NCBI GenBank assembly: GCA_029554345.1
Contig: JAKPJF010000075.1
Coordinates: 1-47,448, forward strand
Reading direction: 5' to 3'
Source: Spirochaetota bacterium
Lineage (GTDB): Bacteria; Spirochaetota; UBA4802; JAFGJZ01
Length of the DNA: 47,448 bases
Below, in pieces: positions 988 through 47,290 of the stretch. The notes beneath the pieces were generated by a model, which searched no databases, was not told where the DNA came from, and saw only the letters and a program-made list of their open reading frames with translations. The translations under genes and the position numbers were made by a program. The first letter of the stretch is position 1. Each line of letters begins with the position of its first letter.

Positions 988-1104
988 GATAATCTTTTAA
1001 CTATAGCAAAATACCCCGCCCCTCTTCGAAAACATACACTTCAAAGGTGAACGTCATTGTTTTTTACAAAAACAGTATTTTCTAAATTCTTCAGAATAAA
1101 ATAA

Positions 1105-1580
1105 ATGACATCAACAACACCTAAATCATTCGGCGAAGCCGAATACCAAGGCGGTAGGATAACCGCCATCGAGGCGCTTCACAAGCAAACAGGAAGTTTG
1201 CAAAAAAGCGCCTCGTTAATAAGCGCAGACTATCGCTGCCATTACGTAGTAATGCGCGATAGGTCTGTCGCGATTAAGAGCGGGCGGGGATTTCACCGTC
1301 CAACGCTAACGGGCATCCTGCCCGCGTTGGATTTGCGTCATCCTGACGCTCAGGAAAAGGCTGGCCGTGTGCTCACGATGAGCACGAGCGAGGCGGCAAC
1401 ACGATGTTGAAAGCCGCCAAGGATGAAGCCCGATCCCTTTTGATCTTCTGCATGAGACCATTCAAAAAACGAATCTATAAGGCGAAGCCTTATGTGGTTG
1501 CCCAACTCATGGGCAGAAAGTGAACGGTTATCAAAGGCGGAGCCTTTGAAGCCCGCCCGGCTCTAGGGCATCGCGCATAT
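1105..1580. repeat. Palindrome-rich mosaic element, copy A
   Basis: About 475 bases of noncoding DNA made almost wholly of stem-loops. They are ATTCGGC-GAA-GCCGAAT (1128-1144); GGCGGT/ACCGCC (1150-1167); GAGGCGCTT/AAGCGCCTC (1171-1214) enclosing GCAAAC/GTTTGC; a two-part hairpin with outer arms 1227-1236 and 1256-1266 around CATTAC-GTA-GTAATG (1240-1254); CAACGC/GCGTTG (1301-1329) enclosing GGGCA-TCC-TGCCC; GCGTCA-TCC-TGACGC (1335-1349); GTGCTCA-CGA-TGAGCAC (1369-1385); GGCGGC/GCCGCC (1392-1418); ATAAGGC-GAA-GCCTTAT (1477-1493); TGCCCA/TGGGCA (1499-1515); and TCAAAGGC-GGA-GCCTTTGA (1531-1549). Its skeleton recurs at 35409-35630. A 101-codon reading frame runs through it, but it translates the palindromes and has no ribosome site, so it is not a gene. 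Confidence 0.8.
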
Positions 1581-1700: not shown

Positions 1701-3437
1701 ATGAAATTATTTAAATCATTGCTTGTTACGATTACACTTTTATCTATATTCTCGTGCGCGGGGGGTTCCTCCGGATCAGCAGGATCATAGATTCTGCCTC
1801 AGGATGAAGAAACGGCATCCCAGACAATTGGAGATACTCCTGCAGCTGCAACGGAAAATCCCGTAACGATTCCATCTGCAGACGAAAGCACTTATAACGC
1901 CGCAGTTCCGGAAAATGAAACTACCGCAGATTCATCCAAGGAGTCAGATACTGCCGATTCAACTAAGGAATCGAATGCAGCAGACGAAAACAAAACAAAC
2001 AACGCAAAACAGGACACCACTGTGCCGGGGAATAATGATTCAGGAACAGGTTCCGACAGCAAAACAGCGGACAATATTTCTCCTGACAACAATGAAACAG
2101 CATCAGACAAAACAGAATCCGCAGCGTCTGAAAACAAGAGTACTGAGTCTGCAGCAAATACCGAAACCGTAATTGCTTCTGACGATGAAATCTCCGTCGA
2201 TGACGATGAGGAAACAGCTGATACAGCATCTACGGCAGATGAGAAAGCGTTTAATTTCGCCACCAGCATCGAACTTCCTGCTCATATTGAATTCAAGGAC
2301 AAGGCAACAGGCAAAGCGATTAAAGGTGTTGAAATTTCAGTATACGATCCGGAAAATGAAAAAGTTCTCGCAACAGCTTTCTCCGACAGCAAGGGAATTT
2401 CCGAATTCATTATAACCGGGCAGTATACCGGTTCCCGGATAGAAATCGTTTTCAGAAAAGACAACTATACTCCAATTAGAGGATATTATATTGAAAGCAA
2501 CGATATAGCATCAATTTCCGAACTTGTACGCACGATTGAACTTAATCCGATTGCTTCTGAATCCGGGAAAGCAAAAGACGGCGGATCGATAATTGCGGAT
2601 AAAGACGGAGACGGAATTGCTGACGAGAACGACGAGTTCCCGGCCGACAAATCAATCGCGAAAGTTGAGAAGCACTCCTACATACTCGCCTTTGAAGACC
2701 GCTATCCCGGCATCGGCGATGCGGATTTCAACGATGCAGTCATCAAGTATGACATAAATGAATTCATTTCATCAGAAAATACAGTACCGAAAATCGTAAT
2801 TCGTTCTCAGGTTCTTGCAGCCGGAACTAACAAGAGCGCCGTATTCGCAGTCAACGTCTCCGGAAAGAGTTATACACTTATAGAAAATCTTAAAGCAGAT
2901 ATAGCTGACGGCTGGAATACCCGCTCGAACGACAAGTACCTTCCGGGTAAAGTCAACGAAATGGTAATCGAATTCAGCAAGCCTCTTGAGAGAAAAACAA
3001 TCGGAGCTGTTCCATATGACCCTTATCTTATTGCAAACGGCGCACATCATGCAAAAAAAGGAAAAATCAAGTCGGCAAACGAGATACACCTTAGTTTCGT
3101 AAAAACTCCGTATAAGAAAACCCGTTTTGCAAAAAACGGTCTCACTTACGCGCTCCTTCTTCCTTCTGACTGGGTATGGCCGGCCGAAAAAGTGGGCGGC
3201 ATTTTCAGAGCGTATCCGGATTTTGTAAAATGGTACAAATCAGGCGGAAAAACAAATACCGACTGGTATAAAAGTTATGATTCGGAACGGATTTTCAAAC
3301 AAGCCGTATCGACATCATCTATCGCAGGATACATTATGGATAATAAGCTGATGAGCACTTCTGTACTCATCCTCCTGATCGTCATGTTCGCCGGAATGAT
3401 AGTTCTTGTAAGACATTATAGACTGAAGCGCAACTAG
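1701..3437 (+). CDS. LruC-domain lipoprotein, interrupted by an in-frame TAG at codon 30
   Basis: The frame starts at an ATG behind a perfect AGGAGG (1691-1696) and encodes a lipoprotein signal ending LLSIFSC (Cys19). It then meets TAG at 1788-1790. The same frame stays open from 1791 to the TAG at 3435-3437, giving 578 codons in all. After the stop comes an acidic Ser/Thr/Asn/Asp linker of about 150 residues, a beta-rich domain, then a Ca-binding-like DKDGDGIADENDEFPAD and the LruC signature FEDRYPGIGDADFNDAVI. The C-terminus is a membrane helix (STSVLILLIVMFAGMIVLV) with a basic tail. LruC domains are known from secreted and outer-membrane proteins such as Leptospira LruC. A shorter product could start at the ATG at 2022 but would lack the signal peptide. 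Promoter, ribosome site and reading frame are otherwise intact, so this is a recent nonsense mutation, a sequencing error or, less likely, readthrough. Confidence 0.75.
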
Positions 3438-3457
3438 AATAACAACAATTCAATGAA

Positions 3458-3496
3458 CTAAAACAAAAGCACCGCTAACAGGTGCTTTTGTTTTAG
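3458..3496. terminator. Rho-independent terminator after the LruC gene
   Basis: A perfect 16-bp stem (3458-3473 with 3481-3496) and a 7-nt loop GCTAACA. The A-rich left arm and T-rich right arm let it work in both directions. Confidence 0.85.
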
Positions 3497-3574
3497 CTAC
3501 AATAAACAATTATGTTCACTCATCTAAAAATGTGTTGAGTTTTCATCAAGTTCCGGATTATTTATTCATATATT

Positions 3575-5293
3575 ATGAATATCGGCAATACATTAAAAAT
3601 AATACTATCGGCCGTTCCAGCGGCATTATTCCTATATCTTTACTGTAGAAGAATCGGCGAAAAAAAACATTTCCCGATTTACGCGGAGTCTTTCCTTCAC
3701 GGTGTGTTCGTATCATTAATCGTACTTCTTTTCAACAGTTTCACCCACGAAATAACCGTTTCGGCTCCTCTAATTGTCCGCAGTTTCGCACTTGCCGCTT
3801 TCATTGAAAAAATCACCGCACTTATTTCGATTTACATACTCATTCGCGGCAGCCGCAAACTGTCAATAAAACAGGGCATCTGCATAGGTATCATATTCGG
3901 TGCCGCATTCGGTTTCGTCGAGAACATTCAGTATTCGATCGCATACAGCGCGGATATTCTTTTACAGCGTATGTTTTTTTCAGTACCCATGCACATCATC
4001 ACATGCGGCATCATCGGATATTTTCTTTCATTGAAACGCATTCACTCAAAACGCCGGAACAGACTCAAACTGCTAACAGCGGCAGTTCTCATCCCGGTTT
4101 TTCTTCACGGTTTATTCGACTATGTGCTCTTTAAGGGTCTTCATGAAGAAATAACAACTCCCCTCATGATTACCGTAATGATCATTATTCTCGAATGGAT
4201 GATATCAATGGCAGTGACAATTCCATCGGCAATTACTCTCGCGGATAAAAAACTTGCATATGAAGAATGGTCGGTAATAACGCGGCATCAAAGGCATGAA
4301 AAATGGATAACCCGCACAATGGGAAAATCAGATGACAGCTATACCGGATTTCTCAGATTCGGAAGCGGAATATCCGATGTCATCATCGCCGTAGTACTGA
4401 TAGCATCTGCAGCAGTATTCATGGTCAAAGCCGACAGAATAACAGTGCTCTCTTCATTGCGCCTCGATCCCCGGGTTGTCGTAATGCTCTTCGTTTCATT
4501 TCCTCTGATGATAGCACTCGCATTCCTTATCAAAGGGATCATCAATCCTAAATACTTTACTGACGGTTTGCTTCGAATACCGGTAATAGCAAACGCAGTC
4601 ATATATCCTTACAGCGATGACGAAGAAACCTTTATAACATATGACATTACCTATGATCTTGTATTTCTCAAAACATATGATTTTCCGGAAACTGAAGTAT
4701 TCGACATGATGTTTGAAGCCGCTCACACCCTTTCTCCGATCATCACCGTAAAGAAGCGATGGGAGAACCGCTCAAACCCTTCCTATCCGTTCGGCGTCCT
4801 TGTAACTCCCGTATCGGGAACTGAATCCGCCCGAATGAAGTTATTCATTCGCCGATATCTACGTATAAAATACCTCAACGGCATTTTGTACGGACTCGGT
4901 GTTCCGGGCCGTGAAAGAATAAAGAGGCATTTCATTCGAACAGACTCCGTGATGAAGCAGAGAATCTGTTTTGAAAAAGGATCTCATATTTATAAAAAAG
5001 GAGATACGGCAAAGTACTTCTTCTGCATTCAAAGCGGAAAAGTTAAAATCTGTTTTGATTCCGGTGAACGCGAAATCAATTACATATTGAAACGCGGAGA
5101 ATATTTAGGGGAATCCGATGTCATAGGAGAGAGAATCCGCAAACATACTGCAATCGCCGAGAGTGATTGTGAACTCCTGGCTGCGGATTTATCGGAAATC
5201 AAAACACTCGTAGAAAACGACCCTCATTTTTCATACCTTGTAATCCTTTCGCTTTCACGTATAATTAAACTCTTCGAGGACGAAGAAAAATAA
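3575..5293 (+). CDS. PrsW-like intramembrane protease fused to a cyclic-nucleotide-binding domain
   Basis: A 572-residue membrane protein. The N-terminal half (about 1-230) has eight or so hydrophobic segments. It carries PrsW-family marks: FIEK (E78-K79), FGFVEN (E116-N117), H140 and HGLFDYV (H178, D182). The usual EExxK first motif is reduced to a single Glu followed directly by Lys, so catalysis is not certain. Two further helices lie near 265-285 and 300-325, followed by a soluble part. Residues 462-572 form a cNMP-binding (CAP/Crp-type) domain, with FEKGSHIYKKGDTAKYFFCI and RGEYLGESDVIGE. PrsW proteins are glutamic intramembrane proteases that start signalling cascades; here a nucleotide signal could gate the protease (inference). 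No clear ribosome site precedes the ATG. It sits between two terminated lipoprotein genes and is probably monocistronic. Confidence 0.8.
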   Translation: MNIGNTLKIILSAVPAALFLYLYCRRIGEKKHFPIYAESFLHGVFVSLIVLLFNSFTHEITVSAPLIVRSFALAAFIEKITALISIYILIRGSRKLSIKQGICIGIIFGAAFGFVENIQYSIAYSADILLQRMFFSVPMHIITCGIIGYFLSLKRIHSKRRNRLKLLTAAVLIPVFLHGLFDYVLFKGLHEEITTPLMITVMIIILEWMISMAVTIPSAITLADKKLAYEEWSVITRHQRHEKWITRTMGKSDDSYTGFLRFGSGISDVIIAVVLIASAAVFMVKADRITVLSSLRLDPRVVVMLFVSFPLMIALAFLIKGIINPKYFTDGLLRIPVIANAVIYPYSDDEETFITYDITYDLVFLKTYDFPETEVFDMMFEAAHTLSPIITVKKRWENRSNPSYPFGVLVTPVSGTESARMKLFIRRYLRIKYLNGILYGLGVPGRERIKRHFIRTDSVMKQRICFEKGSHIYKKGDTAKYFFCIQSGKVKICFDSGEREINYILKRGEYLGESDVIGERIRKHTAIAESDCELLAADLSEIKTLVENDPHFSYLVILSLSRIIKLFEDEEK

Positions 5294-35162: not shown

Positions 35163-35408
35163 ATCAACATACACGGAGAGCATCATGAAATCAATATTTA
35201 CATGACCCTTACAATCTTTTTGAGCAATATTTCCAAAAATGTCAAATCCAAAAAAACCGCCTGCCGCAGAAAGAATTACGCGCGCCCTCACCCAGCCTCT
35301 GGCTCGCCCTCTCCCAGAATGAAGCTCAAATCGGCAAAGCCGATGAAGAAAAACCATTCCCGGGAGAGGGCTTTCTATCAATATTTTACTGATTCAGCAT
35401 GTATTAAA
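35163..35408. other. Noncoding stretch with one long imperfect hairpin
   Basis: No gene is seen. GCCCTCTCCC (35306-35315) pairs with GGGAGAGGGC (35362-35371), extended by AATG/CATT, around ATCGGC-AAA-GCCGAT (35330-35344). Part of the palindrome family but with a CAAAG loop. Confidence 0.5.
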
Positions 35409-35630
35409 TAATACCAACAACACCTGAATCGTCCGACGCAGTCGGACACCGAATAAGCGCAGACTTTCGCAGTTATTACGAAGTAATACGCGAAAGTTCT
35501 GTCGCGACAAAAAGCCGGGTAGGGATTTCAAAAGGGACAGGGCTGGCGACTGAAGCCCTGTCCCTTTTGATCTTATCGTATGAGACCATGCGAAAACCGG
35601 GTAAAGGGCATGGAATGCCCTTTAATGTAC
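35409..35630. repeat. Palindrome-rich mosaic element, copy B
   Basis: Shares its skeleton with copy A (1105-1580): AACAACACCT, a variable hairpin (GTCCGAC-GCA-GTCGGAC, 35431-35447), AATAAGCGCAGACT and a two-part hairpin (outer arms 35461-35470 and 35490-35500 around TATTAC-GAA-GTAATA, 35474-35488). Then come CTGTCGCGA, GGGATTTCA, a perfect 17-bp stem (35528-35544 with 35554-35570), TCCCTTTTGATCTT and ATGAGACCAT. Compared with copy A, stem bases differ in compensating pairs. The end holds AAAGGGCAT-GGA-ATGCCCTTT (35603-35623), part of a 31-base string repeated at 47253. Confidence 0.8.
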
Positions 35631-35759
35631 GTCCGACTCTCGGAAGAATTTATTGTTGAAATCAGTTAATTAATTCTTATTCTCAGCGAACTTCCTATTC
35701 GCTTCGAATGAGATTTTGAATTGATTTAACGCACCAACCTATGAGGTAACGCTTACATT

Positions 35760-35983
35760 TTCCCGCTATGGACTTCGTCCATCTCGCGGGCAGTCGGAAC
35801 GAGTCCGACAAACGAGACGCTTCAATATGCGACACGACGTCGCAACGAAAGCGTCTCATCAGTTTCCGCTTCCTTGCGGAAACGGCATGACACCATGCAA
35901 ACGACGAATACATAAGGCGGAGCCTTATGACAAAAAAAAACCGCGTTACAAACGCGGGCCGATCTTTAAGCCGAAGGCTTAAA
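35760..35983. repeat. Palindrome cluster downstream of gltD
   Basis: In order: CCCGC/GCGGG (35762-35790) enclosing ATGGAC-TTC-GTCCAT; GTCGGA/TCCGAC (35793-35809); GAGACGCTT (35814-35822)/AAGCGTCTC (35849-35857) enclosing TGCGAC/GTCGCA; GTTTCCGC/GCGGAAAC (35862-35883); GCATG/CATGC (35885-35898); CATAAGGC-GGA-GCCTTATG (35911-35929); CCGCGTT-ACA-AACGCGG (35941-35957); and TTTAAGCC-GAA-GGCTTAAA (35965-35983). The last ends 4 bases from the gltD stop. Confidence 0.75.
35931..35957 (-). terminator. Terminator of gltD
   Basis: On the minus strand a 7-bp GC-rich stem (35941-35957) is followed by nine T (A-run at 35932-35940). It is a standard intrinsic terminator 30 bases after the gltD stop. Confidence 0.85.
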
Positions 35984-45611: not shown

Positions 45612-45990
45612 ATTCAAAGGCTTCGCCTTTTGATCCGTTATTCGCATGGTGTCATGCAATACACAAAAGGTGCTCCGCACCTTTTAAATCCATTTGTCCA
45701 TTTCTTTTGCGTCGCCCAAAAGAAATGGACGAAAGAAAAGGGCGCCGCTGCGCGGTGCTTGTCTCGCGTATTCCTCGCACCGGCGTTGCCGGATGCTGCG
45801 GTCGCTCGAGTTGTGTCCGACTGCGTCGGACAGTTTAGGTTCATTTTCTGCTCACTCAGCTTTTGCGTCTGTATTGACTCTTTATCACTCACTCCTTGCC
45901 CAGACTTCCGACAACCATATCCTTATGCCTCATTGATTTCAATGACGACATAAGGCCGCTTATCCTAAACCGGATGGGAGTTTAGTTCGA
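45612..45990. repeat. Palindrome cluster upstream of hom
   Basis: No gene is seen here. The stem-loops are AAAGGC-TTC-GCCTTT (45616-45630); GCATG/CATGC (45644-45657, the same string as at 35885 in reverse); AAAAGGTGC-TCC-GCACCTTTT (45665-45685); a perfect 14-bp stem with arms 45696-45709 and 45717-45730; GCGCCGC-TGC-GCGGTGC (45742-45758, one G-T); GCA + CCGGC-GTT-GCCGG + TGC (45777-45795); TGTCCGAC-TGC-GTCGGACA (45814-45832); CCTTATG/CATAAGG (45921-45955) enclosing TCATTG/CAATGA; and CTAAAC/GTTTAG near 45966. Short frames through the palindromes have no ribosome sites. Confidence 0.75.
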
Positions 45991-46914: not shown

Positions 46915-47290
46915 ACAAAGGCGAAGCCTTATTCTACAAGTCCGATCTGTCCGCATTAAATTTTCCCAATCCTGACCCACAGGAAGAGAAGCGATCGTGA
47001 GCTCTGAAAGTAATTAACGAATGACAGAAAAAGCCTTTAAAAACTTCATCCGCAGAATAAGTTACGCGTATACTGAGCGAAGCGAATAAACGCGTAATGA
47101 TATTATCAATTAAATGATTCCCGAAATTACGAAAGTGCGCTAAGCACTTCAGAAAGATATGCATGAAAGAAAAAGAAATTAAGGGGTCTGGGGATATCCC
47201 CAGCGGCTTTTCTTTGCGGTACTTTCTTTTTGCCGAAAAAAAAGAAAGTACCAAAACCGGGTAAAGGGCATGGAATGCCCTTTGATTTTT
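46915..47290. repeat. Palindrome cluster near the right end
   Basis: No gene is seen. The stem-loops are AAGGC-GAA-GCCTT (46918-46930); TTACGCGT (47062-47069)/ACGCGTAA (47090-47097) enclosing GCGAAGC (47077-47083); AAGTGC/GCACTT (near 47132-47148); GGGGATATCCCC (47190-47201); a 14-bp stem with arms 47218-47231 and 47239-47252; and AAAGGGCAT-GGA-ATGCCCTTT (47263-47283). The last is inside a 31-base string identical to 35593-35623. Confidence 0.75.

Follow-up and report, generated by a model that had tools for sequence, protein, structure and literature searches.

Promoter hairpins of phage N4 extrude at physiological superhelicity only if the 3-base loop has a 5' G and a 3' A and is closed by a C-G pair, and the hairpin on the complementary strand is the only one that SSB melts (PMC4496689). 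In Streptomyces telomeres, several palindromes are packed together, with GNA loops and compensatory stem changes (PMC7205883). Among bacterial repeats, BIME, REP and REPIN elements are intergenic interspersed palindromes joined in mosaics (PMC3733652, PMC3116915), and pneumococcal BOX elements are modular composites whose module number varies between strains (PMC3049150). No paper was found on GNA-triloop mosaic repeats in bacteria.

The spirochaete hairpin clusters described here have traits in common with each of these systems. They resemble N4 virion RNA polymerase promoters in their short stems, 3-nt loops with 5' G and 3' A, C-G closure, variable stem sequences and one predicted stable, SSB-resistant strand, whereas they form many-hairpin arrays at dozens of chromosomal sites, with no phage context seen. 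With Streptomyces telomeres they share the packing of five to eight palindromes, GNA caps (GCA, GGA), compensatory changes and fast turnover; a telomere of that type was set aside because many of these dispersed clusters are internal, between genes inside contigs. The likeness to BOX elements is one of organisation only, about ten hairpin module types being used here. Unlike BIME, REP and REPIN sequences, the clusters follow a triloop rule and run in one direction, with no GTAG/CGTC tag rule and no RAYT found.

The window, i.e. the whole stretch of DNA analysed (47,448 nt), lies on contig C153 of a 3.03 Mb draft genome (214 contigs, 96% complete), hereafter the source genome. The genus has one further sampled species (JAKJGA01, UR.bin167), represented by a 66% complete genome. 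The parts of the repeat recognised in the window were as follows, with the basis of each assignment in brackets.

1020..1127, plus strand: AT-rich leader of cluster 1, near-identical in the cluster of contig C161 (sequence comparison, upstream similarity)
1128..1144, plus strand: module a hairpin ATTCGGC-GAA-GCCGAAT (re-extraction, family counts)
1221..1274, plus strand: module b, a bulged long hairpin with its apex CATTAC-GTA-GTAATG at 1240-1254 (alignment, re-extraction)
1275..1442, plus strand: a form of module c into which a multi-hairpin stretch has been inserted, ending in the shared ...CCCTTTTGATCTT (cluster comparison)
1477..1493, plus strand: module f hairpin ATAAGGC-GAA-GCCTTAT (re-extraction; 33 AAGGCGAAGCCTT sites listed in the genome)
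1531..1549, plus strand: module f hairpin TCAAAGGC-GGA-GCCTTTGA (re-extraction)
35260..35375, plus strand: CCCTCACCC...GGGAGAGGG module, whose inner hairpin ATCGGC-AAA-GCCGAT is ATTGGC-GAA-GCCAAT in the orthologue (orthologue comparison)
35431..35447, plus strand: module a hairpin GTCCGAC-GCA-GTCGGAC, with a GAA loop in the UR.bin167 orthologue (re-extraction, orthologue comparison)
35455..35508, plus strand: module b, apex TATTAC-GAA-GTAATA (alignment)
35511..35596, plus strand: module c, its 16-bp stem closing on the constant loop GGCGACTGA, together with the module d hairpin (covariation; model R1, E 4e-19, this copy being included in the model)
35602..35624, plus strand: module e hairpin with a T-GGA-A triloop (re-extraction, family counts)
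35690..35890, minus strand: module k, a structured block with C-GAA-G (a second copy on contig C114 differs partly through paired changes)
35911..35929, plus strand: module f hairpin CATAAGGC-GGA-GCCTTATG (re-extraction)
45616..45832, minus strand: cluster 3, with modules a, b2, c2, h, d and f (orthologous to contig C158 of UR.bin167)
46918..46930, plus strand: isolated module f hairpin AAGGC-GAA-GCCTT (re-extraction)
47253..47286, plus strand: module e hairpin with a T-GGA-A triloop, adjoining a 14-bp AAAGAAAGTACC palindrome at 47218-47252 (re-extraction)

The original prediction, made from the window, had listed fifteen hairpins with C-GNA-G loops. All were present on re-extraction, and 13 agreed with it in loop, closing pair and strand and had perfectly paired stems of 5-9 bp; the remaining two were weaker, that at 45742-45758 pairing at 6 of 7 positions and the GCGAAGC at 47077-47083 having a stem of just 2 bp. 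Its four A-T-closed GGA hairpins were recovered as well, those at 1311 and 1335 having their GGA on the strand opposite to the remainder of cluster 1. Among triloop hairpins with a perfect stem of 5 bp or more, C-GNA-G accounted for 13 of 25 in the four clusters (1.95 kb) and for none of 85 in the rest of the window (45.5 kb; Fisher p = 2e-10). In having a GNA triloop and C-G closure on a perfect stem, these hairpins have the form of the C-GNA-G class of DNA mini-hairpins.

The clusters were real, as predicted, but their hairpins were modules of a larger mosaic repeat rather than isolated elements. Thirty-four clusters were found within the sampled part of the source genome, a minimal count because many sit near contig ends of the draft, and cluster 2 gave 53 partial matches in that genome. 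Comparison of clusters displayed a module order: an AT-rich leader ending in ACACCTAAAYC, hairpin a, a bulged hairpin b (forms b1-b4), then c or its alternative c2, followed by the small hairpin d (GCATGAGACCATGC) and by a repeated large GNA hairpin (e, f or h) together with d or g hairpins. Module c consists of a 16-bp stem with the loop GGCGAYTGA, and c2 of TTTCTTTTGG...CAAAAGAAA. All anchors lay on a single strand in 55 of the 57 clusters of the two genomes, and inverted (head-to-head or tail-to-tail) dimers were not the arrangement found. Neighbouring genes occurred in all orientations, and a UTR-type element was rejected on this mixed orientation. Being dispersed intergenic composites with variable module combinations, the clusters are organised in the manner of BIME and BOX elements, and are best read as copies of a non-coding mosaic interspersed repeat. 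Some ten types of hairpin module make it up; they can replace one another, but tend to follow one order and all point the same way.

With cluster orientation set by asymmetric anchors, C-GNA-G lay on the sense strand in 109 cases against 3 (72:3 in the source genome, 37:0 in UR.bin167). Stems of the C-GNA-G hairpins comprised at least 13 distinct sequences by our count, with several copies each: GTCCGAC, ATTCGGC, TATCAGCC, AATTTGCC, ATCTGCC, CATTAC/CATTTC, AAAGGC/TAAGGC, AAAGAC, AGGTGC, AAGGGCGT, CCTCC, CCGCT and TTAAGCC. Some of these families are probably related through compensatory change. A GNA loop capped 125 of the 142 hairpins with listed stems (a strand-doubled count of 284, halved), AAA being the commonest exception; these counts overstate the evidence because the many copies of a few module families are not independent, and the family is the cautious unit. 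Counted in that way, more than ten stem families obeyed the GNA rule and about six broke it (b2 with AAA, d with ATC, g with CAC/CTC, G-TGA-C, A-CGA and A-TCC). Within a stem family the loop varied mainly at the free middle base, as in families a1 (GCA 18, GAA 8, GTA 2), h (GAA 12, GGA 11, GTA 2) and f (GAA 51, GCA 2, GGA 1). The claim that the loop class is retained while stems differ therefore held: so many stem families share the rule that one ancestral hairpin for all copies was excluded.

Triloop counts against order-2 Markov sequences told the same for loop proportions, which were not random. In 352 kb of the source genome sampled irrespective of clusters, to which cluster-bearing contigs were added for the genome-wide loop counts, C-GNA-G occurred 30 times against 4.8 expected at stems of at least 6 bp and 20 times against 0.2 at stems of at least 7 bp. 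Contigs of UR.bin167, picked because they hold clusters, gave 47 against 1.6 expected. Values were 7 against 5.0 in 400 kb of other Spirochaetota (5 against 1.4 at stems of at least 7 bp), 0 against 0.6 in 58 kb of the sister genus, and 0 against 0.4 in 50 kb of E. coli. Enrichment is confined to the clusters and to the genus, and a general bacterial triloop bias was ruled out at stems of at least 5 and 6 bp, where the control genomes were at or near chance. Neither of the outcomes named beforehand as fatal to the prediction, random triloop proportions or one ancestor for all copies, was observed.

The repeat itself had a narrow range. A BLAST search of 98 relatives with cluster 2 matched solely the other genome of the genus, and an exact b2 pattern, the one module used in a named-genome scan of 84,980 species, was found in UR.bin167 alone. 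The same pattern had no match in viral contigs, plasmid and phage homologues were searched for and none was found, and the orthologous sites examined in the sister genus carried no arrays. Two genomes rich in AAGGCGNAGCCTT, G055 and G143, were set aside as carrying repeats of other kinds. In G055, a GC-rich spirochaete, a dispersed repeat of about 200 bp starting TCAAAAGGCGAAGCCTTTTACCTGG occurred in several places (L178-L189). In G143, from another spirochaete family, arrays of GTGCT...AGCAC palindromes were mixed with many different GNA-capped hairpins (L170-L177); the loop rule may have arisen there independently, although the sample is biased, since the loci were chosen by one GNA-capped hairpin.

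Orthologous sites of the two species displayed the turnover of the repeat. The cluster of contigs C168/C203 was kept in UR.bin167 with CAAAGGC-GAA replaced by CAAAGAC-GAA, a single paired G-C to A-T change with the loop unchanged, and with a loop change from GAA to GGA, still in class. Cluster 2 was common to both species up to module b and then continued with different modules, the switch falling exactly after GTCGCGACAA. Cluster 3 and its orthologue had different a hairpins (GTCCGAC-GCA against ATCAGCC-GAA), and cluster 3 was without a 54-nt stretch of extra modules present in UR.bin167. At another site, a 57-nt unit of modules e and g was gained in UR.bin167 or lost in the source genome. 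Modules are thus exchanged, gained and lost at orthologous sites and stems change by paired substitutions, while C-GNA-G or T-GNA-A is kept on one strand. Whether DNA or RNA is concerned, the clusters clearly illustrate how mosaic repeats evolve when modules are exchanged and stems change in pairs. Where UR.bin167 has its counterpart of cluster 3 (L121, about 3190-4000), a short two-gene unit followed a 20-bp palindrome where the source genome has other sequence; by eye, it is apparently an antitoxin and PIN-type toxin pair.

Covariation in the stems was strong. Cells of the c-d alignment were paired in 98.9% of cases, with 10 pairs changed on both sides (69 such cells), and its covariation score of 0.443 exceeded both the shuffled value (0.202, sd 0.016) and that of slid versions (no higher than 0.102); the b alignment was 99.1% paired, with 4 pairs changed on both sides. 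Stems capped by other loops (modules c and d) covaried as well. The sense strand folded better than the antisense in 36 of 42 clusters with DNA parameters and in 29 of 42 with RNA parameters (median -4.2 kcal/mol), a pseudo-replicated comparison, which for DNA is not circular because the parameters used give GNA no bonus. Relative to GC skew, the sense strand was the C-rich one in 30 of 42 clusters (p = 0.008), a weak bias, opposite in orientation to that expected if the GNA strand were exposed as lagging-strand template.

A DNA hairpin constraint on one strand of the mosaic repeat is the favoured reading, at a probability of about one half, because of the GNA precedents in N4 and Streptomyces. 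The special stability of C-GNA-G DNA mini-hairpins, invoked in the original prediction, is backed by those studies (PMC4496689, PMC7205883). We infer that the sense strand would matter as a folded single strand, whose likeliest form would be DNA that replication lays bare or negative supercoiling extrudes, since GNA triloops let short DNA hairpins extrude and survive SSB on one strand, as in N4 promoters. Hairpins with other loops would be melted more often and so lost as working or copying units, and copies may have spread through recombination or template switching between clusters, or through an enzyme acting in trans. Against this reading, the strand asymmetry, like the fold difference, suffers in part from pseudo-replication, some families are off-rule (AAA in b2, TGA, ATC, CAC/CTC), the bias relative to GC skew runs the wrong way, and searches for PF01797 and PF00078 turned up no mobilising enzyme. 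If the sense strand does act as folded single-stranded DNA, the clusters would be a natural many-copy set of chromosomal hairpins under selection for loop structure over sequence, for which N4 promoters, Streptomyces telomeres and mobile elements of ssDNA have so far been the main examples, and the role of cruciform extrusion or SSB resistance in repeat evolution would become testable.

Module c fits RNA at least equally. Among transition departures from Watson-Crick pairing in its stem, counted over distinct sequences, the sense strand had 13 G.T cells and 1 A.C cell, which points to sense-strand folding. Because of this excess, the main rival remains a transcribed structured non-coding RNA on the sense strand, tentative as it is, in which each module would correspond to a domain of the RNA and the arrays would be mosaics within a single RNA family, with module c and its GGCGNNTGA loop as a core conserved across the order. 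The strong covariation of module c and the RNA folding of the sense strand agree with it. The GNA hairpins do not: their G.T and A.C departures were about equal and thus without an RNA-like signal. The free swapping of modules, the mixed orientation relative to adjoining genes and promoter scans, which in the two clusters scanned scored close to shuffled sequence, also weigh against RNA. In Rfam, nothing in the window matched above the gathering score, sub-threshold matches only being obtained. Nor are GNA triloops known for special stability in the nearest-neighbour tables of RNA, which was counted against the RNA rival too.

Relatives of module c were found further afield. A covariance model of c-d recovered them in further families of the order (G012, G025, G008, G017, G021, G026 and G043; L233-L243), with the purine-rich 5' arm of the long stem seen in the clusters; they were multi-copy in G012 and G025, in G012 as a repeat of about 600 bp. 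Those of genus g7 had different stems around a constant GGCGNNTGA loop, as the RNA reading would have it, and no C-GNA-G excess (1 against 0.9 expected). In several relatives a GGACTGTNTGAG...CGAGTTCCGCAG block stood 5' of module c and resembled module b3. Module c is therefore old, and hairpins with GNA caps seem to have developed within this genus, since order-wide relatives exist without a C-GNA-G excess in g7. The relatives are absent from Rfam; should the clusters act as RNA, module c would represent a structured element of the order that has not been described before. On a contig of a viral collection (IMGVR_UViG_2829208299, L247:9041-9077), GGACTGTCTGAG...GCGAGTTCCGCAG was followed by a TTTTGGTTCCTTTTCTT...AAGAAAATG palindrome, like b3 and c2; this block with its TTTCTTTTGG-type palindrome suggests a wider distribution.

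More speculatively, these may be genus-specific repeats defined by structure and not by sequence, unrelated stems being held to one loop rule because their C-GNA-G caps are read, on one strand, by a protein of the host or of the element, or through SSB exclusion; G143 would then offer a possible parallel. A neutral, mutational origin is unlikely. In it, a 3' end would fold back on a CGNAG core and prime or template synthesis, so that palindromes are made and continually perfected and the loop rule reflects the foldbacks that form and no function. It predicts that, on one strand, stems of many sequences enclose an unvarying C-GNA-G, and that template switching yields paired changes, and the long-stem count in other Spirochaetota and the G143 arrays accord with it; however, other genomes were at chance levels for shorter stems, modules c and d covary under other loops, module order and orientation are retained, and G143 is a biased sample.

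Least probable are non-autonomous ssDNA transposons moved in trans by a Y1/HUH enzyme (RAYT, IS200/IS605) or another hairpin-reading recombinase, for although the palindromes are dispersed, multi-copy and intergenic, with strand-specific hairpins and module gain between species, no PF01797 match was found in the 96% complete source genome, GTAG accompanied 0 of 68 C-GNA-G hairpins, and the clusters are unidirectional, not head-to-head dimers, with no clean element ends defined. The original prediction was thus borne out in its observation and not in the RAYT/TnpA gene it proposed to look for. The same absences of GTAG and PF01797 and the single direction speak against RAYT-mobilised REP or REPIN sequences; CGTC stood near 14 of the 68 hairpins.

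Enzyme searches covered PF01797 and PF00078. The single RVT_1 match in the source genome lay on contig C114, where a group II intron (L067:1-1795; RF02005 at 9e-24, RF00029, an RT ORF of 436 aa) stands directly upstream of module k and a palindrome cluster. As a driver of the repeat it was rejected, being a single copy beside one cluster only, and no RVT_1 match was found in the 66% complete genome of UR.bin167, though it has clusters. At the end of cluster 2, CCGCGTT-TGT-AACGCGG followed by TTTTTTTTT (35941-35957 of the window, minus strand) is likely the intrinsic terminator of a gltBD-like operon.
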